Origin: Candidatus Omnitrophota bacterium
Lineage (GTDB): Bacteria; Omnitrophota; JACPQZ01
Assembly (NCBI GenBank): GCA_016190205.1
Contig: JACPQZ010000001.1
Span: 1-9,726, forward strand
Length of the DNA stretch: 9,726 nt
Reading direction: 5' to 3'
Of the stretch, positions 2 to 9,726 are shown one piece after another. A model generated the notes under the pieces. The model was not told where the DNA came from. It did not search any database and saw only the letters and a program-made list of their open reading frames with translations. The translations under genes and the position numbers were made by a program. Position 1 is the first letter of the stretch. Every line of letters starts with the position of its first letter.

Positions 2-1249
2 CGCTCGTCCGCTCATTTCAGGACGATCAGCGATCCTGCCAGCCGAACCTATATGGAGGCGTTTCCGGACCATCGAGCGGTGCGCCTGACCGAGCTGGAA
101 TGGTTTCTGCAGACATCCGATTGCTTCAGGCCGGAAGTAACAGGCGCACCGTACGACGGCTGCGGCGCGGAGGCGCTCATGTATAAACTCAAAACGAACA
201 GCCTGATGCACAGCGACGCCTTTCGTAATAAGCATTCTGTGGTGATATTTCCAATCTGGGGAATGCCCGCATGGCTCAACGGCGGGAAGGGGTTGCAATA
301 TCCGCCGTCCGATTACGACCTCTGGCGGAACGTGGCGCGTGAGATTGCGGCATTCTACGGCCAGTTTGAGGGCCCTGATTTTTATTTTGAGATTTGGAAT
401 GAGCCGGACTTTGAGATTTTCTGGATGGGGAACACGGACGAATATCTGGAGTTTTACGCTGAAACGGCACGTGCCATGAAAGCAGCCAATCCCTCGGCCC
501 AAGTAGGCGGGCCGGCGGTGAACCAGTGGTATGCCAGGATCGACGCGGACCGCGACCCGCTCGCGTTCGAGCTCATCCGAAAAGCTGCCGCGGAAGGCCT
601 GCCGCTCGATTTTCTCTCCTGGCACAGTTATTTCAGCGACCCCGCTTTTTTTAAGCAGGCTAAAGACGCCTATTCTCAAGCAGTGACCTATTACCGCCTG
701 CCCCAAATGCCACGCTTTGTGGTGAGCGAATGGAACATGAGCGGGGTCCAGACCCGCACCTCCGAATGGGCACCCCTCATCATGGCGGAGGGCTACCTGG
801 GAATCACACGGGCGGGGATAGATATCCAAACCGTCTATAGCTGGGTGGACGACCATCCCCTAGATTATCCAGACCAGACGTATTACGGCCTGTTGACCCA
901 GGAGGGGACCCCCCGGCCTGTGTTTTATATCCACCAGTTTTTCGACTCCTTAAGCCGCGATTCCCAGGGAATCGCCATCGTGGAGGCCGGAGGCGCCAAG
1001 GTGCTCATATCAAAGGCTGCGGCCGACGGGAACCGATATAAGATCATGTTTTGGAAGCCTGTCACGCAAGGGGATTGGAGCGCGCCCAAGGAATACCGAA
1101 TCACGTTCGCCGACCGAGGGCTCGTTATGGTGCAGGGGGCTTACTCGGTCTCCGACGGGCTCCATACAAAACAAGTGAGCGTTTCAGGAAACGCGATTTC
1201 CTTTTCGTTAGCAGGCAACGAGGTTCTGGGGGTTGAAGTAAGCTTTTGA
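2..1249 (+). CDS. GH39-like glycoside hydrolase, clan GH-A (5' end outside the window)
   Basis: A secreted or periplasmic glycoside hydrolase that probably cleaves glycosidic bonds of a polysaccharide or oligosaccharide by the retaining mechanism. The frame is open from base 2. The first ATG (53) has no ribosome binding site and sits inside conserved-looking sequence, so it is internal and the true start is upstream. Numbering from that ATG, IWNEPDF puts the acid/base Glu at residue 117 and VVSEWNMSG puts the nucleophile Glu at 226. This spacing of about 110 residues is normal for clan GH-A. Also visible are a FPIWGMPAWLNGG strand before the WNEP motif and LSWHSYFS between the two glutamates, both typical of GH39. 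Residues from about 310 form a C-terminal beta-sandwich ending in LAGNEVLGVEVSF. GH39 includes beta-xylosidases, alpha-L-iduronidases and exopolysaccharide hydrolases of the PslG type; the substrate cannot be read from the sequence. The gene is probably cotranscribed with the large gene 39 bases downstream. Family confidence is good, substrate unknown. Confidence 0.85.
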   Translation, partial: RSSAHFRTISDPASRTYMEAFPDHRAVRLTELEWFLQTSDCFRPEVTGAPYDGCGAEALMYKLKTNSLMHSDAFRNKHSVVIFPIWGMPAWLNGGKGLQYPPSDYDLWRNVAREIAAFYGQFEGPDFYFEIWNEPDFEIFWMGNTDEYLEFYAETARAMKAANPSAQVGGPAVNQWYARIDADRDPLAFELIRKAAAEGLPLDFLSWHSYFSDPAFFKQAKDAYSQAVTYYRLPQMPRFVVSEWNMSGVQTRTSEWAPLIMAEGYLGITRAGIDIQTVYSWVDDHPLDYPDQTYYGLLTQEGTPRPVFYIHQFFDSLSRDSQGIAIVEAGGAKVLISKAAADGNRYKIMFWKPVTQGDWSAPKEYRITFADRGLVMVQGAYSVSDGLHTKQVSVSGNAISFSLAGNEVLGVEVSF

Positions 1250-1251
1250 GG

Positions 1252-1271
1252 CAGACACGATAACGTGTCTG
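1252..1271 (+). other. Perfect intergenic hairpin between the GH39 gene and the modular esterase gene
   Basis: CAGACACG and CGTGTCTG form a perfect 8-bp inverted repeat around a 4-base ATAA loop. It starts just after the GH39 stop codon and ends three bases before the next Shine-Dalgarno. No T-run follows, so it is not a classical intrinsic terminator. It could protect or process the 3' end of the upstream message, attenuate, or be a small operator. The structure is directly visible; the function is inferred. Confidence 0.6.
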
Positions 1272-1273
1272 GT

Positions 1274-1280
1274 GGGAGGA
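1274..1280 (+). promoter_or_regulatory. Ribosome binding site that sets the start at 1289
   Basis: GGGAGGA lies 8 bases before ATG 1289, an ideal distance. The alternative in-frame GTG at 1265 falls inside the right arm of the intergenic hairpin and has no Shine-Dalgarno. It would also place a run of arginines before a clean signal peptide. ATG 1289 is therefore preferred. Confidence 0.8.
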
Positions 1281-1288
1281 GACGGGGA

Positions 1289-4200
1289 ATGAAGCGATGC
1301 ATCCTGCATAAATTTTTCTACTTTTTAGTTCTTTCTCTGGGTGCTTGGCTCGTCTTCCAGGGCTCTTCTCAAGCCTGGTCGGGTGAGGTCGTGAGCTTCT
1401 CGCTCATAAACGCAGATACCGACCAGCCGATCGCGGGCTTTAATCCAATCCCAGCCAGCGCTTCTATTTATCTTGGAGCTCTCCCTACCCGCAATTTAAA
1501 TATCCGCGCAAACGTTTCAGGGAAAATAGTGGGCGTGCGTTTTGGCCTGCCCGGCGATTCCAATGACGGTCGGCTCGACACAATAGCTCCCTATGCCCTG
1601 GCGGGGGATGTGAGCGGAAACTTCAATTCTTGGACGCCTTCGGCAGGCACACACAACCTCACGGCGACACCGCTTGTCAAACGTGGCTCACGCGTCAGGT
1701 CAGGAACCAGTAGTTCCCTGGGCTTTACGGTCGTGGATGGGACAGCCCCTCCCCCACCGGACACGACTCCGCCCACTGTTGAAAATAGCTCGCTACCCCA
1801 GGGTGAAGTAACCGTCGTATTGCAATACGGCCGCCCTGTGCCCGGGCTCGGCGTCACCTCCTTTACGGGGTCCAAGGATACACTTCTGAAGGCAGAATCT
1901 CCGAATGCAGGGTACTACGAGCAAGGATCAGCACCCGTGGTGACCTACCGGTTCCTGCGCTTCGGGCTTTACTGGTTCGATTTATCCGTCCTGCCCGCTG
2001 GAGTCAGCATAACCCGTGCCCGGCTCCATCTTTATTCGGTGGAGATGAATTCTTTTGATCTAGGGGGTTCGGCTCCCATTTTTGTCGTGCGGTCTTTACA
2101 GCCCAATAGAGCGATCACATGGGTTGAAGGGTCAGGCGTGGGTTTTTATGACCAGTATGGCGGGACGAGCTGGCTCAAGAAGGATAACGAGTCCGGTCTT
2201 AAGCCCCGGTATGCCTGGTCGGATCTCCCGGGCCACTATTCCACGGGCGACCTGTCATCGGCATACCAATCGCCTGCGGCCGGCTACATGAATTTTGTCA
2301 AGGCGCTGGGTGATCAGGTCTCTACCGATCTTTCACCAGCCATTCAGGCGATTCTCAATTCGGGCGGTCGGTATGAGGGTCTTGCGGTTGACCGCACTCT
2401 AGTCTCCGCGGAAATCCGTAAGGACAAGATCGCGCACCGGGAATACGCGGACGCCGCCCTGCGACCCGCCTTGGAAATTACATATCGCATCGGAAGCGCG
2501 CCGCCCCCGCCGCCGTCCGGACAAACAGCACCTAGTAGTTATCTCATAGAGCATATAGGGACAGGAACCCATTCAATCGTCAACGGATATACCGGGGCGC
2601 AGCCTGGAAAAAGCGGTTCGTTCATTGAGCCTGAAACCGGTCACCGCATCACGCGCATCACAGATATCAACGAATACAATCCCCTGCAGAACGGAAACCC
2701 TTCCATCGGGTTCTACAATGGCTACTCCACTTATACCAATATTAACTATCTCGGGGATTATGCCCTGGCGTACAACACGAGTAACTCAATCGCCCTCTAT
2801 GGCCTTTCCGATTGTGCCTTTATCCATTCCTTAGGGGTAGGGGAGACTAATGATCCGCGCTTCGATCTATCCGGAAGGCCCGGGACCGAATACGATCTTT
2901 ATTACCACTCCGGGACATACATCAAAAAGATGAACGTGCTCACCAAGGCCAGCGAAGTGATCTATAACTTCGGCGAATGGATCTATTCGGATGACCACAT
3001 GGATCAAGCTACCCGCGCCCGTTACCGGCCGGGCCGCCTGTCGAATTACCGGGTTTTCGTATTTGATCTATATGAGAAACGTCCCTTGCAGGGAATCGTG
3101 AATGGATACGGATACGACGTGTCTCCTAAGGGAGCCTTCCTTTATTCAGATGGCCGTTACTTCAGGACAGCCGATCTGGATGTGGGTAACACCACTCCCT
3201 TTGCCCTGATACCTACCGCGAGCGCCGGCCACTCCGGCTGGGCGTTCGATTCTAACGGGGATGAGGTGCACGTCTTTCAGGACAACAGAAATGACTGGTT
3301 TTCAGCGTTTAATCCGGCTACGGGGGAGCGGATTGATATAGCTCACTTTTTGGATTTCGGCGTGGGCTGGAGTCTAGGTCAGCACATCGCCCGAATTCAT
3401 AATCCGCTTAAAAAGGGATGGTTCCTGATGGCGACCTATACGCCGCCGAGCGCGGTCGGTTGGGGGGCGAATAACATCTTCATGGTCGAAGTCCTTCCGA
3501 AGGCGCAGAGTCCCCGCGTCTGGAGAATCGCGTCCACACATAACGGGCCGTTTGCGGTCGGCACGACCGCTAAGGATTATTTTGCCGAGGCCTTTGCCAA
3601 TGTTGATCCGAGCGGAAATAACATCTACTGGGGGGCGAACTGGGGAAGAGAGGACAATTTGGAGCTATACCGCGTGGAGCTACCTCAAAACTGGCATGAG
3701 GTACTGGCAGGCGGCGTGGTTCCGCCTCCTCTGAATCATCCCCCGGCGCTTTCGGTCCCAGGGCCTCAGACGGTCCAGGAAGGCACAGCCCTCAACTTTA
3801 CGGTCTCGGCCGGTGATCCGGACGGTGATACCGTCACGCTCACGGCATCGGGCCTGCCCACAGGGGCTACATTCAGCTCTGCACGCTATGACTGGACTCC
3901 TGATTTCAATCAGGCAGCGGGTTACGTCGTTTCATTCACCGCTTCGGATGGCAGCCTTTCTACTACTGCAACCGTTTCGATTACAGTTGTAGATGTCCCG
4001 CAGCCGAGTAATTTACGCCGGATTGAATTGTATGCGGGGGCCAATATACCAGAATTCGGAATTTCCAATTACGATGGGGTCAGCCAAAATTTCGTGACTC
4101 AAGGCAATTCCGCACTTTATCAGACGGCAACGCGTGGAAATTATTGTCCTTTAGCAAGCCTGCGACAGGATACTTATACATGGAATGGGACAACCTACAC

Positions 4201-7200
4201 GGCTCAGTCTTGGCTAGATGCGGGTTTGGTGGATTGCGGTGAACTTTTATTTTTCGATGTCAGTAAACTGCCCAAGGATCTCAATATTAAGCGCGCTTAT
4301 ATTGGATTATCGGCGACGAATGAATACAATGAATTTGGAAATCATCCCCACGGGCAAGAAGGCATTCCTGTTCGGCAAATTCTTAATTTATTGAATTTGC
4401 CAACGCCTTGGACACGGGCCTATTTAAGACCGGGCACCGTTGGCACCCAGGAAGCCAACTGGGATGGGGCGAGTTGGGGATTTTCTAAACAGGAAGTGGC
4501 CACTCCTGCTACCACCATGAAGACCTATTCATTTGTGAGCGCATCAGGAACTGTAACAAACGTCAGCTACCCCGATAATCTAGCGCCCTGGTCGCTGGTA
4601 GCCACAGGCACTGAAAGATGGGGCACGGGTCCTGGGCGTTATGGCAATTTATCCACCGCACTAAGGATGTTAGCGAACGATCCGCGAATCAGTTTCAATC
4701 CTGACCATAGATCCATGAGCTATTCCGACGAGATTACAGAACTTGTTAAGGGCTGGACGGATGGAAGTATAGAAAATTTTGGCGTATTCCTGGATGCGAA
4801 CAACTCAAGTTCTACAACATACTTTGGTACGTCGGGAAGTCCAAACCCCAAGAATCGCTGCCTAGTGGGCATCATGACGAATTATTCTGCAGATCCGTCG
4901 GTGAGACCGCGTTTGGTGATCGAATACGATCTGACACCAGCCCCTTCACCAGGTCCATCTCCTACGAATCAGCCGCCAGTCGCTACACCTCAATCTGTCA
5001 CCACAATCGAAAACACCGCTAAGCCCATTACATTAGCGGGTTCAGACCCTGATGGAGACCCCCTAACCTATATTGTAGTAACACAACCTAGTCACGGCAC
5101 ATTAACGGGCACTGCGCCAACATTTTCTTATACACCCGCTTCTAACTATACCGGCCCTGACACCTTCACCTTTAAAGTAAACGATGGAACAGTAGATTCA
5201 TCGACTGTTATTGTTACGATTGAGGTAATTACTATCCCCCCGCCCGTGCCGGGAACGGATCTCGTCACCCTGCGCTTCGGCGAACACCTGACAAGCGATG
5301 TCACCGGTGTGCATCAAGACGCGGTGATTAAGTCAGGCGCCCAGAATCAAAACTACAACGGCGGCTCGTCCGGTGAGCACTACTACCGTTGGGACAGCAA
5401 TATCCTGATGCGATTTGACCTTGCCGGTATCCCAACGGGGGCACGGGTGCATCGGGCCCTCCTGCGCATGTTCATGCCGACGAGCTACTATGACGGCGGC
5501 GCGACGGGCGTGACATTACCGCTCTATGCCCTGACGGATCCGGAGGGAACAGGGGCCTGGGCCGAGCAAGAGGTCACCTGGAAAAATAAGCGTAACGGAG
5601 TACCATGGAGCGGCACTTCGGGAACTATTGACACCGTCAAGGGTGCTTCCGGCGCCACGATCTACTTCAAGAACTGGCTGGCCGGGGGACAGTATTTCCT
5701 GGATGCCGATCTCACCGGGCTCGTGCAGGGATGGGTGGATAACCCATCGTCCAATCTGGGCGTCCTCATCCCCGAGCACGCCAACTTTAACAAGAGGGTG
5801 GGGGCTAAGGAAAATACCGACCCAGCCTTGAGGCCGTACCTGGAAGTGACGTTTGAAGGAACGCAAACTGAAAACATTCCGCTCCCCGCTGACATCCGCG
5901 CCGTGCATCATTCTGGACAGACCTTCGTCACCTGGAAGGAAGTGGTCACGGGGCGCAACGAAACAAGTTACAAGATCTATCGCTCGGCCAACGCGATCAC
6001 CCACACCGACGATCTTAGCTCTGCAGAGCTCTTGGATCAGGTTTACCAGGGCTCCTCGTGGGTTGCGGATTGGTCGACGGACACGGCCGCGCGCCAGCCG
6101 GATCTTGCGCCCCTTGGAATAACTCTCGCGGAGGACAGCGGGCTTTATGTCTATCCTGTCGAGGCGGGGTCATCTGCCTATTACGCCGTGACGACCGTTG
6201 TAGAGGGCAATGAAAATCGCGATATCACCCTTGGCGTGAATGCTATTGTTTCACCTATTGAAGAGCATGTGGGGATTCCGGACGCCTTCTATGTTAACGA
6301 GCATAATTATGACGGCTATTACACGGGATACGTCATGTGGCTCGGGCGCTTCAATCCGAAGGACGCTGCAGACCGCTTCGGCTTTGACAACCGCCGCTCG
6401 GCGCCGGTTCTTTTTTCAATCTCGTTCCCGCACCGGGCGGTCCCAAGCCCGAGTGAGCGCGACCGCATTGGCCGGGAAAGGCTTCCCATCATCTCCGACG
6501 AACGCTTCCCCCTCACGATTTACCTCCACTCCTTTGGCCACGGGTACTTTGACAGCAATGAGGGCAGGGATAACTCCATCGTGGTGGACAGCGAGCGCTA
6601 TGGTGGATTTTGCATGAATTTTACGGACATGTCTCGCATCGTGATCAAGGACAAGGAAGGGGTCAAGCGTAACGTGAGCTACCTGGATGCCGGCAATGAC
6701 TACGACTATTCCTATTACACGGGCTGGAACTCGAATTACGCCCCCACAGAAGTGCTCAAAGGATTCATTCCGACCTTCAAGAGCGCCCGGCCCTTTAACG
6801 AAGGGGTGAGCGTCCCCTACGCCGAAAAACAGATACGCTTCATTGCCGAGTGGCTCCTCACGACAAGCCCCTGGGCGAAGAACGGAGACCCGGCCCGCGT
6901 TTACGCGACAGGGGCCTCTATGGGAGGCTGGGGTGCGGCGGAGCTCGCAGTGCATCACCCGGATTTGATCTCCGCGGCGGATATTATAAAGGGGAGGTTG
7001 AAGTATCTCGCGGCCGGAAGAGGGAAGGAAAATGATCGCCAATATGGCAGTGTTGCGGAAAATATCCGGACACCCGGGGGTATGGGAATTTATGACTACA
7101 TGGATCTTGGCAAATACGCGGGAATCATGCCGGGCCTGGACTATCCTTCCATACGCCTGCTCCACGGCAAAAACGATACCACCATTGTCTGGAACCACGT

Positions 7201-7768
7201 TCCGCCGTTCTATGCCGATGCTCGCGCGGCCAGGCTCGGAATCCATGCCTGGTTTGATCAATCCCAACATTCCGGAGGGGATCCGGAGGCGGTTTTCCCT
7301 GAGCGTGTCGACAGCCGCAATTTTGTGGCCGATCAAAAAGCGCCCTACTGGAACATATTCCACTTCAGCCAAAATGAAAGTTATCCGGCCTTCACGGACT
7401 TTTCGCTCAATAATGACCCGGGCACGGGGGACCCGCTGTCGGGGGATCTGCGCGGCGGGATCAGCCGCTACACCTCTTGGGAACGCTCCACCATTGTAGA
7501 CACGCCCAGCCGTTACGAGATAACGCTGTATCTCCTGGTGGAGGCGCCGCAGAACACAGCCACCGTCACTGTGACTCCTCGCAGATTGCAGGCGATGACC
7601 CATGTACCCGGGATCAGTTACTCGTGGCGGAATCAGCGCGTAAGTGACGGCGTGCCCCTCCAGTCGGGCAGTGTGACGGCAGATGCCGCAGGCCTCGTCT
7701 CCATTTCAGGATTTGAGATTTCCAAAGAGCCCTCAAGACTGATTATTATTCAAGGAGGTTCCCAATGA
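1289..7768 (+). CDS. Giant secreted multidomain putative carbohydrate esterase with three DNRLRE (CBM96-like) modules
   Basis: A 2159-residue exported protein. Domain order, with approximate residues: signal peptide 1-29 (KRCILHK, hydrophobic core, SQA cleavage site); N-terminal beta domain 33-150, then a Pro-rich linker; DNRLRE module 1 at 174-401; putative beta-propeller 416-809, with NGYSTYTNINYLGDYAL and a repeat-like YWGANWG region; Ig-like domain 816-903 with DPDGD at 843; DNRLRE module 2 at 910-1215; cadherin-like domain 1227-1315 with DPDGD at 1253; DNRLRE module 3 at 1324-1524, ending LRPYLEVTF; FN3-like region 1532-1662; alpha/beta-hydrolase from about 1700; beta-rich tail to the end. 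The hydrolase shows an oxyanion-type LHSFGHG (1746-1752), nucleophile elbow GASMGG with Ser1877, LHGKND with Asp1963, and QHSGG with His1994. This resembles the PHB depolymerase/feruloyl esterase superfamily. DNRLRE modules occur in Methanosarcina disaggregatase and define CBM96, reported to bind alginate. I infer a polymer-binding deacylase acting with the adjacent GH39 enzyme. No sortase, T9SS or autotransporter anchor is visible. Modules are clear; the substrate is unknown, and a peptidase role is possible. Confidence 0.85.
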   Translation: MKRCILHKFFYFLVLSLGAWLVFQGSSQAWSGEVVSFSLINADTDQPIAGFNPIPASASIYLGALPTRNLNIRANVSGKIVGVRFGLPGDSNDGRLDTIAPYALAGDVSGNFNSWTPSAGTHNLTATPLVKRGSRVRSGTSSSLGFTVVDGTAPPPPDTTPPTVENSSLPQGEVTVVLQYGRPVPGLGVTSFTGSKDTLLKAESPNAGYYEQGSAPVVTYRFLRFGLYWFDLSVLPAGVSITRARLHLYSVEMNSFDLGGSAPIFVVRSLQPNRAITWVEGSGVGFYDQYGGTSWLKKDNESGLKPRYAWSDLPGHYSTGDLSSAYQSPAAGYMNFVKALGDQVSTDLSPAIQAILNSGGRYEGLAVDRTLVSAEIRKDKIAHREYADAALRPALEITYRIGSAPPPPPSGQTAPSSYLIEHIGTGTHSIVNGYTGAQPGKSGSFIEPETGHRITRITDINEYNPLQNGNPSIGFYNGYSTYTNINYLGDYALAYNTSNSIALYGLSDCAFIHSLGVGETNDPRFDLSGRPGTEYDLYYHSGTYIKKMNVLTKASEVIYNFGEWIYSDDHMDQATRARYRPGRLSNYRVFVFDLYEKRPLQGIVNGYGYDVSPKGAFLYSDGRYFRTADLDVGNTTPFALIPTASAGHSGWAFDSNGDEVHVFQDNRNDWFSAFNPATGERIDIAHFLDFGVGWSLGQHIARIHNPLKKGWFLMATYTPPSAVGWGANNIFMVEVLPKAQSPRVWRIASTHNGPFAVGTTAKDYFAEAFANVDPSGNNIYWGANWGREDNLELYRVELPQNWHEVLAGGVVPPPLNHPPALSVPGPQTVQEGTALNFTVSAGDPDGDTVTLTASGLPTGATFSSARYDWTPDFNQAAGYVVSFTASDGSLSTTATVSITVVDVPQPSNLRRIELYAGANIPEFGISNYDGVSQNFVTQGNSALYQTATRGNYCPLASLRQDTYTWNGTTYTAQSWLDAGLVDCGELLFFDVSKLPKDLNIKRAYIGLSATNEYNEFGNHPHGQEGIPVRQILNLLNLPTPWTRAYLRPGTVGTQEANWDGASWGFSKQEVATPATTMKTYSFVSASGTVTNVSYPDNLAPWSLVATGTERWGTGPGRYGNLSTALRMLANDPRISFNPDHRSMSYSDEITELVKGWTDGSIENFGVFLDANNSSSTTYFGTSGSPNPKNRCLVGIMTNYSADPSVRPRLVIEYDLTPAPSPGPSPTNQPPVATPQSVTTIENTAKPITLAGSDPDGDPLTYIVVTQPSHGTLTGTAPTFSYTPASNYTGPDTFTFKVNDGTVDSSTVIVTIEVITIPPPVPGTDLVTLRFGEHLTSDVTGVHQDAVIKSGAQNQNYNGGSSGEHYYRWDSNILMRFDLAGIPTGARVHRALLRMFMPTSYYDGGATGVTLPLYALTDPEGTGAWAEQEVTWKNKRNGVPWSGTSGTIDTVKGASGATIYFKNWLAGGQYFLDADLTGLVQGWVDNPSSNLGVLIPEHANFNKRVGAKENTDPALRPYLEVTFEGTQTENIPLPADIRAVHHSGQTFVTWKEVVTGRNETSYKIYRSANAITHTDDLSSAELLDQVYQGSSWVADWSTDTAARQPDLAPLGITLAEDSGLYVYPVEAGSSAYYAVTTVVEGNENRDITLGVNAIVSPIEEHVGIPDAFYVNEHNYDGYYTGYVMWLGRFNPKDAADRFGFDNRRSAPVLFSISFPHRAVPSPSERDRIGRERLPIISDERFPLTIYLHSFGHGYFDSNEGRDNSIVVDSERYGGFCMNFTDMSRIVIKDKEGVKRNVSYLDAGNDYDYSYYTGWNSNYAPTEVLKGFIPTFKSARPFNEGVSVPYAEKQIRFIAEWLLTTSPWAKNGDPARVYATGASMGGWGAAELAVHHPDLISAADIIKGRLKYLAAGRGKENDRQYGSVAENIRTPGGMGIYDYMDLGKYAGIMPGLDYPSIRLLHGKNDTTIVWNHVPPFYADARAARLGIHAWFDQSQHSGGDPEAVFPERVDSRNFVADQKAPYWNIFHFSQNESYPAFTDFSLNNDPGTGDPLSGDLRGGISRYTSWERSTIVDTPSRYEITLYLLVEAPQNTATVTVTPRRLQAMTHVPGISYSWRNQRVSDGVPLQSGSVTADAAGLVSISGFEISKEPSRLIIIQGGSQ
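4010..5240 (+). other. AT-richer island inside the giant gene (DNRLRE module 2 plus cadherin-like domain)
   Basis: Hand counts of sample 60-base rows give roughly 37-48% GC here (4321, 4381, 4741, 5041, 5161), against about 57-65% in sampled rows just downstream (5701, 6541). Codons shift towards A/T-ending forms such as ttt, aat, tta and gta. The boundaries match domain boundaries: the island begins just after the first Ig-like domain and ends at the IPPPVPG linker before DNRLRE module 3. The reading frame is uninterrupted. I infer module acquisition by recombination from a lower-GC source or a diverged homologue. Edges are accurate only to some tens of bases. Confidence 0.6.
7752..7758 (+). 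promoter_or_regulatory. Near-ideal Shine-Dalgarno before an ATGA overlap at the end of the giant gene
   Basis: AAGGAGG ends 6 bases before ATG 7765, and this ATG overlaps the TGA stop (7766-7768) of the giant gene, a classic layout for translational coupling. The reading frame from this ATG now holds only 20 codons (7765-7827, stop TAG), starting MTTPLQRL and ending AMRC. That peptide is too short to call a gene. The signal more likely belonged to a downstream gene that has since been lost. A chance match is possible, because these bases also code the last residues QGGSQ. Confidence 0.5.
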
Positions 7769-7805
7769 CGACTCCACTACAGCGCCTAAGGAATTGCCAT
7801 CTTGG

Positions 7806-7847
7806 TTGGCGGGCAATGAGGTGTTAGGAGTCGAAGTCTGTTTTTAG
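7806..7847 (+). pseudogene. Relic of the 3' end of a second GH39-like gene
   Basis: Read in the frame of 7806, the sequence codes LAGNEVLGVEVCF followed by TAG. The upstream GH39 protein ends LAGNEVLGVEVSF followed by TGA, so 12 of 13 residues agree. Most codons differ at silent positions, for example gca/gcg, aac/aat, ctg/tta, ggg/gga and gta/gtc. That pattern is expected of a paralogue that diverged under protein-level selection, not of a recent copy. Going back in frame there is no start codon and a TGA appears at 7740-7742; nothing convincing from the rest of a GH39 domain is present. Just before it, residues TAPKE weakly recall SAPKE of the upstream protein, which may be chance. With the coupled start at 7765, the simplest reading is a nearly complete internal deletion that kept only the ends of a gene. 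Confidence 0.65.
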
Positions 7848-7848
7848 A

Positions 7849-9726
7849 TCAGGGTCTTTGCGGTGTGCTGATCGCAATTTCTTTGGGCCCCGTGCCGGTG
7901 TGGATCTCCCCGATGACACTCACCTCTTTAGGATTGATGAGGGTAACTGTTCCAGAGGCCTCGTTCGCCACGTAGACGGCGTCACCGCTCGGCGTAATGG
8001 CGATGCCCGCCGGACGCTCCCCAACCTTCAGGCGCGCGATTTCCCTTCCTTCCTTGGGATCCACCACAGAGACCGTTCCATCTCCCCGGTTTGAGATGTA
8101 GAGGATGCCGTCCGGGCCCTTCTCGATGACGTGGGGGTAATTACCCACGGGGATGGCCTTCGTCTTCGAAAGGGTGCTGATGATCAGGATCCTGTTGTTC
8201 TGGGTATCTGTGATGTAGAGCGCGCTTCCGTCGTCGGAATAAGCCAGGCCGTAGGGCGAGCCGCCGGCCTTGATGACCAGCTCTTCCTCGCCTGTCTCGG
8301 CGTTGATCTTGGAAACCGTCCCATCCAGGCTGTTGCTCACGTAGAGCGCGCTCTCGTCAGGGGTGAGGAGAATCTGCGAAGGGTGGGAGCCGGTTGAGAA
8401 GGTCTGCGTGACCTTCTTTTGCGCAAGATCAACCACCTGTACCGTATCGGTCAAGGCATTTGCGACAAAGGCCTTGGTGCCGTGGGCGGCCAGGATAATT
8501 TGCGAGGCCTCCTCATTTAACCCGTAGATGTAGCCGCTGTTTCTTAACGATGCCGTGTCATAAGTGGCGAGCTTGCGGCTCGAGGGCAGGATGGCGTAGA
8601 CTGCTTTTCCATCGGGCGCCGAGATGATGTCGGAGGGGGCCTCGAGGCTCGCGAAGTGCCGGATCGTCTCATTGACGGTTGCCCGCAGGACGCGCACGCC
8701 GTCCACGTGGGTGATGTAGAGCGTGCGGGCGTCGAGGTGGGCCTTTCCCTGGGGGTCAACCGTGATCTTTTCACCTGTATAAATCTTGGTCTTGTTCACT
8801 TCCACCGCGCCTTCGTAGACATAAACGTGCGTGGTGGTGGCGGGCCGCCCGTCTTCTTTGCCGCTATCCGATTTGGGAAGGACCCCGGGGGCGCCCTGTC
8901 CAGTGCTGGTAGTTGCGGTGGGTTGAACGGGTCCGGCCGCGCTCGCAACGGTGGTTTCGCCGGCAGTATCCGCATCGGTCTCTCCGGTCGTGTCCGCCTG
9001 GGATTCGGCGGTTGTTTCCGCCCCGGTCTCGGTTGTGCCGGTCTCGGCGGTGCCCATCTCGTCAATGGTTTGATCCACTTGGGCAGGCTCCGGAGTCTGC
9101 GCGGGGGAGGGATCCGGGAATGTATCGGGGGTCGTGGTCGCGGCCGTTTGCGCGGCGAACCAATTGGTGTTGTTGCCGCTATTGGTCGAGCTCGCGGGGC
9201 CTATAACCGTAGTGTGGATGTTGTAGGAATCCATGACATCCACAAAGGAGATTGAGCGGGTGCCCTGGGGGTCTATCCGCCACTGGGTGCCGCTTGCCGA
9301 GGACCGGAGGCTCAAGAGACTGCCGCTTGCACCACCCAAGGTCGCCGTCCCCGTGATCGTCTGTGTGGCCCCTGCCCCAAAGGTTAAGGTATCGGCCGAG
9401 GTGACGGATTTTGTGAGGTTATAGAAGTTTGAGCTCCCCGTGATCTGCTGACTGGTGCCGTCCAGAACAACGGTGCTTGAGCCCGGGGTAAAGGTGCCGC
9501 TGTTGGCCCAGTTTCCGGTGAGATTGATTTGGCTATTTCCCCCTGCGCCAGAGGAAGCGTTTAAGGTGCCATTCAGTGTGATATTGCCTCCGATATCAAG
9601 GCTATAGCCTGCCGTCGCCAACGTCCCGGCCGCAAGGTCCACGTCATCCGTCACCACAAGGTCATCAGATAAGGTCCAAGTCCCGGCCCCGGTGACTTTT
9701 AAGTCACCAAAGTCATCCGCGTTGTC
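7849..9726 (-). CDS. Beta-strand-repeat surface protein with acidic linker and C-terminal seven-bladed YVTN propeller (5' end outside the window)
   Basis: The frame is open to the window edge, giving 625 visible residues. The 23 codons before the GTG at 9657 keep the same repeat character (VTGAGTWTLSDDLVV), so that GTG is internal and the true start lies outside. The N-terminal part (about 9160-9726) is rich in Gly, Ser, Thr and Asn, with repeats such as LDIGGNITLNGTLN and TLTFGAGATQTITG, as in secreted parallel beta-helix proteins. It ends in SGNNTNWFAA. A Thr/Glu/Ala/Pro linker of about 108 residues follows (8830-9156). Next is a short FecR-like segment, VYEGAVEVNKTKIYTGEKI, a tentative call. 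From about 8725 to the end I count six full YVTN-type blades with LYVSN, LYITD, LYISN and VYVAN strands. A seventh is completed by the N-terminal LYITHVDGVRVL strand and the C-terminal GPKEIAIS strand. YncE-like propellers bind partners or cofactors rather than catalyse. Likely role: surface display or adhesion. It converges with the + strand genes with only one base between stop codons if the relic is counted. Confidence 0.75.
   Translation of the reverse strand, partial: DNADDFGDLKVTGAGTWTLSDDLVVTDDVDLAAGTLATAGYSLDIGGNITLNGTLNASSGAGGNSQINLTGNWANSGTFTPGSSTVVLDGTSQQITGSSNFYNLTKSVTSADTLTFGAGATQTITGTATLGGASGSLLSLRSSASGTQWRIDPQGTRSISFVDVMDSYNIHTTVIGPASSTNSGNNTNWFAAQTAATTTPDTFPDPSPAQTPEPAQVDQTIDEMGTAETGTTETGAETTAESQADTTGETDADTAGETTVASAAGPVQPTATTSTGQGAPGVLPKSDSGKEDGRPATTTHVYVYEGAVEVNKTKIYTGEKITVDPQGKAHLDARTLYITHVDGVRVLRATVNETIRHFASLEAPSDIISAPDGKAVYAILPSSRKLATYDTASLRNSGYIYGLNEEASQIILAAHGTKAFVANALTDTVQVVDLAQKKVTQTFSTGSHPSQILLTPDESALYVSNSLDGTVSKINAETGEEELVIKAGGSPYGLAYSDDGSALYITDTQNNRILIISTLSKTKAIPVGNYPHVIEKGPDGILYISNRGDGTVSVVDPKEGREIARLKVGERPAGIAITPSGDAVYVANEASGTVTLINPKEVSVIGEIHTGTGPKEIAISTPQRP
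8947..9054 (-). repeat. Degenerate repeats coding an acidic Thr/Glu-rich linker
   Basis: Short imperfect repeats built on ACC/ACA-GAG-ACC-type codons encode the series TAETGTTETGAETT, then TGETDADTAGETT. They sit in the middle of the linker between the beta-strand repeats and the C-terminal propeller. The stretch has no lysine or arginine and alternates Thr with Glu/Asp, so it should be extended, disordered and negatively charged. Dense threonines could be O-glycosylated. Such tracts often change length by slippage. Confidence 0.6.

Follow-up and report, generated by a model that had tools for sequence, protein, structure and literature searches.

A remnant of a second GH39-type gene downstream of a modular esterase gene

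A stub of 13 codons and a stop, located at positions 7,806 to 7,847 on the forward strand of the window (a complete contig of 9,726 bp), is the terminal coding part of a second GH39-type gene, as its codons show, and the intact paralogue of that gene lies across a modular esterase gene. We judge it reasonably probable that this second gene was the third of an operon and suffered an internal deletion, with its start and its tail retained and joined out of frame.

Results

The window belongs to a draft genome of 1.65 Mb in 76 contigs with an estimated completeness of 92.8%. Glycoside hydrolases of family GH39 adopt a TIM barrel fold in which the acid/base glutamate resides in a WNEP motif and a further glutamate serves as the nucleophile. 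The gene at positions 2 to 1,249 (forward strand) belongs to this family, matching Pfam PF01229 (E 6.3e-19) and GH39 beta-xylosidases of known structure in the PDB (E 1e-16; for example 2bs9 and 8i0x), and it retains the WNEP and SEWN motifs; the contig edge truncates it at the 5′ end. Its final 13 codons and TGA stop (1,208 to 1,249), which read LAGNEVLGVEVSF*, provide the reference for the stub. A structure model of this protein had a mean pLDDT of 45 and, given this low confidence, was left out of the evidence. The modular esterase gene follows on the same strand (1,265 to 7,768) and carries DNRLRE, Ig/cadherin-like and PHB-depolymerase-like esterase domains; its product is very large and probably secreted, and translation is likelier to start at the ATG at 1,289, which stands behind a GGGAGGAG-type site, than at the frame start at 1,265. 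The reverse strand carries a convergent YVTN/YncE-type beta-propeller gene (7,849 to 9,726) whose 5′ end lies beyond the contig. The stops of the stub and of the propeller gene are separated by 1 bp (7,845 to 7,851), and a weak terminator-like hairpin occurs past the stub's stop, within the propeller gene, at 7,858 to 7,877. An Rfam search gave no match, and no SSU rRNA gene was found in the draft.

Translation of 7,806 to 7,847 yields LAGNEVLGVEVCF followed by a TAG stop, and alignment with the C-terminus of the intact GH39 protein reveals 12 identical residues out of 13, and the stop codons line up. Between the tails, 11 of 39 coding bases are different; nine of these differences, distributed over eight codons, are silent, and the other two fall within a single Ser/Cys codon. 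When 11 random substitutions were placed on the 39 coding bases in a neutral simulation, none of 200,000 trials produced one residue change or fewer. This result and the silent pattern indicate that both tails were still translated and under selection as they drifted apart, and thus that the loss of the second GH39-type gene came late, being recent relative to the split between the two genes. Recent duplication of nothing but the tail is ruled out by the 28% difference between the two DNA sequences. In six-frame scans for 13-residue matches covering 242 kb and, after pre-filtering, 776 kb of the organism's own genome, the best unrelated peptide reached a BLOSUM62 sum of 29, against 57 for the stub. 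At the level of DNA alone the match is moderate, with a local score of 25 that was reached by 14 of 2,000 shuffles; the strength of the match resides in its codons. The initial annotation had described this agreement of 12 residues with mostly silent differences, and the description holds, except that it began the stub at 7,800, which is six bases too early: the TCT TGG at 7,800 to 7,805 (Ser-Trp) has no counterpart in the intact tail.

The core of the shared ending, GNEVLGVEV, was back-translated and found twice in the organism's own genome, both times within the window, with no further site there even when two mismatches were allowed. Across 84,980 species genomes there were 17 exact matches to this 9-mer, all of them internal to other proteins and none at a C-terminus, and a search of viral contigs returned one internal chance match. 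A sharing of the 13-residue ending by many unrelated proteins, which had been named as an observation that could overturn the proposal, was therefore not encountered.

Immediately upstream, the sequence around the esterase stop reads AAGGAGGTTCCCAATGACG. A Shine-Dalgarno-like AGGAGG is embedded within the final esterase codons (7,753 to 7,758) and is followed, at a normal spacing of 6 nt, by an ATG at 7,765 to 7,767 that overlaps the stop in the arrangement ATGA. At present this ATG opens a frame of only 20 codons, MTTPLQRLRNCHLGWRAMRC*, which ends at a stop at 7,825 to 7,827. For calibration, we collected from 776 kb of the same genome the long frames that end in an ATGA overlap accompanied by a ribosome site of 5 bases or more. 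In 20 of 25 other such overlaps the ATG opens a frame of at least 135 aa, and a site of this kind accompanies only 29 of 1,448 out-of-frame ATGA sequences inside genes. Because of these frequencies, a third operon gene likely, if not certainly, began at 7,765, and the description of the tail as lacking its own start is probably mistaken. The other five overlaps open only 8 to 58 codons despite a strong ribosome site, so such a signal can exist without a gene; a smaller calibration on 242 kb, which gave eight out of eight, is too optimistic beside the larger one. The start and the tail need not derive from the same gene.

From the ATG at 7,765 to the TAG of the stub there are 83 nt, which is not a multiple of three and fits a deletion that joined both ends out of frame. 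The intervening 38 nt (7,768 to 7,805), where the putative deletion junction would lie, have no clear assignment and bear only a marginal, alignment-dependent likeness to the bases preceding the intact tail: depending on the scoring scheme, and for stretches of 38 to 42 nt, the observed score was reached by 0.5 to 10% of shuffles. The similarity of this stretch to bases 968 to 983 of the GH39 gene (GGAATCGCCATCGTGG) or to the pre-tail bases is likewise suggestive and not significant (43 of 2,000 shuffles). An accumulation of many small lesions between 7,768 and 7,805 would be hard to square with an undamaged tail, which favors one clean deletion.

That the tail lacks a body, as the initial annotation had proposed, was borne out, since no GH39 body is present at the site, and a search of the 92.8%-complete genome for a second full GH39 gene found none elsewhere. 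The junction region occurs once in the draft. The sequence at the contig break inside the first GH39 gene (1 to 52) is likewise found at no other place in the draft.

Relatives that preserve a full GH39 gene behind the esterase had been suggested as a source of evidence for the ancestral order. Neither the 384 phylum genomes nor the species collection yielded a relative in which the locus is intact. A GH39 query against the genome contig collection returned no relative, and neither the esterase domain nor the esterase end has a real relative in the 384 phylum genomes. GH39-like proteins that are about 30% identical occur in a quarter of these 384 genomes and differ in their C-terminal parts. 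The alignment of homologous C-termini that had also been proposed was uninformative, as these homologues end in low-complexity tails; the translation of 7,806 to 7,847 itself did support the proposal.

All eight GH39-like phylum proteins that we compared (about 600 aa) carry W[NST]AP at the position where the window protein (window positions 391 to 408) and GH39 enzymes have WNEP. The acid/base glutamate is thereby replaced by alanine, and the second glutamate (SEWN/DEWN) is retained. Most matches belong to a single family within the phylum. These proteins possibly form a widespread group that lacks normal glycosidase activity or uses another mechanism.

Discussion

According to the deletion model, the operon would once have continued from the esterase gene into a third gene, with its start at the ATG at 7,765 and its end at the TAG at 7,845 to 7,847, beside the propeller gene. 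This third gene would have coded for a GH39-type enzyme whose C-terminus closely resembled that of the GH39 protein encoded across the esterase gene. A deletion inside it would then have removed nearly all of the gene from start to tail and fused the ends out of frame, such that ribosomes initiating at 7,765 would meet a stop after 20 codons and no enzyme would be made. The ancestral order was then likely GH39-esterase-GH39. Several circumstances count against this model: five of the 25 calibrating overlaps open no long frame, the 38 nt ahead of the tail have no clear assignment, the order is intact in no relative found, the locus lies on a 9.7-kb contig from a 76-contig draft, and the 5′ end of the intact GH39 gene is missing, which leaves its N-terminus unavailable for comparison.

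The tail might instead be a replacement scar, in which an incoming or rearranged GH39-esterase block overwrote the body of a resident GH39 gene beside the propeller gene and left its last 13 codons, implying that GH39-esterase-GH39 never stood as three full genes. Such an event would explain a strongly diverged yet coding-conserved tail without invoking a paralogue, would allow the start signal at 7,765 to belong to another gene of the incoming block, and agrees with the three-gene order being seen in no relative. We nevertheless regard it as rather unlikely, as it requires two recombination points, one of them at a non-homologous place, and nothing in the block looks foreign, the codon usage values of the GH39 gene (0.278) and the esterase gene (0.19) both falling within the genome's 5 to 95% range of 0.17 to 0.38. 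Literature searches on replacement remnants, and on GH39 in combination with PHB depolymerase, yielded nothing usable. An assembly artefact, in which a full second GH39 gene exists and its body was lost during assembly, or strains were merged, so that only start and tail were left, would be in keeping with a short contig that ends inside the first GH39 gene. It is distinctly improbable, however: with 11 of 39 bases differing between the tails, a collapse of near-identical copies is unlikely, and the junction region, the contig start and another GH39 gene are found on no other contig, in a genome that is itself only 92.8% complete.

The two remaining explanations concern the tail itself. A programmed +1 frameshift site combines a slippery codon, a stop and a stimulator that are conserved across relatives. 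The segment at 7,752 to 7,769 (AAGGAGG, four bases, CAA, UGA, C) is loosely reminiscent of the release factor 2 site for +1 frameshifting, and the tail could still be translated as an extension of the esterase, through a +1 shift at CAA UGA C behind AGGAGG that gives ...GGSQ-DDSTTAPKELPSWLAGNEVLGVEVCF. The tail frame is indeed +1 to that of the esterase and open from 7,743, the UGA is followed by C, the Shine-Dalgarno-like element stands 4 nt before the last sense codon, and the silent pattern in the tail would be accounted for; if this were true, a remnant of one enzyme would now be a regulated extension of its neighbor. We consider it very unlikely, since the slip from CAA to AAU re-pairs poorly and no role is known for an esterase ending in a GH39 tail, and since the overlapping start, calibrated in the organism's own genome, explains AGGAGG and the layout of this segment better. 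The last explanation is that the tails agree by chance or through a generic ending widespread among proteins. The modest DNA-level score, reached by 14 of 2,000 shuffles, would permit it, but the core 9-mer stands at no other C-terminus and the next best 13-mer scores barely half as high (29 against 57). The genome and species scans thus refute this explanation, to which we assign a negligible probability, and they uphold the proposal that the stub is the tail of a second GH39-type gene.

Truncated pseudogenes and gene remnants are known from bacteria, such as the fragments catalogued in Rickettsia (PMC2374718). The stub, interpreted as a deletion product, resembles them in being a fragment that is still recognizably similar to an intact relative and still sits at its place in the gene order. 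Its similarity to part of a functional gene is significant (12 of 13 residues, an aligned stop and a unique core), and most of the coding length and the intact frame have been lost, with a frame-shifted 83 nt between the ATG at 7,765 and the TAG ending at 7,847 and no GH39 body. Unlike the Rickettsia fragments, it comprises only 14 codons of tail and is compared with a paralogue from the same locus; the lost gene seems to have left its start site behind too, and close relatives of the organism are absent from the collections. As the stub contains only the last 13 residues, it includes no catalytic residue of the family, and its assignment to GH39 is made solely through the tail of the paralogue.

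The stub represents ordinary gene decay that is well preserved, with edges that are unusually readable. Gene callers miss so short a stub, yet the past gene content of the locus can be read from it, the homology of the tail pointing to the lost enzyme and the overlapping start site to where in the operon its gene probably stood. For the organism, this means that one of two GH39 enzymes encoded beside the modular esterase has probably been lost; no general view is altered.
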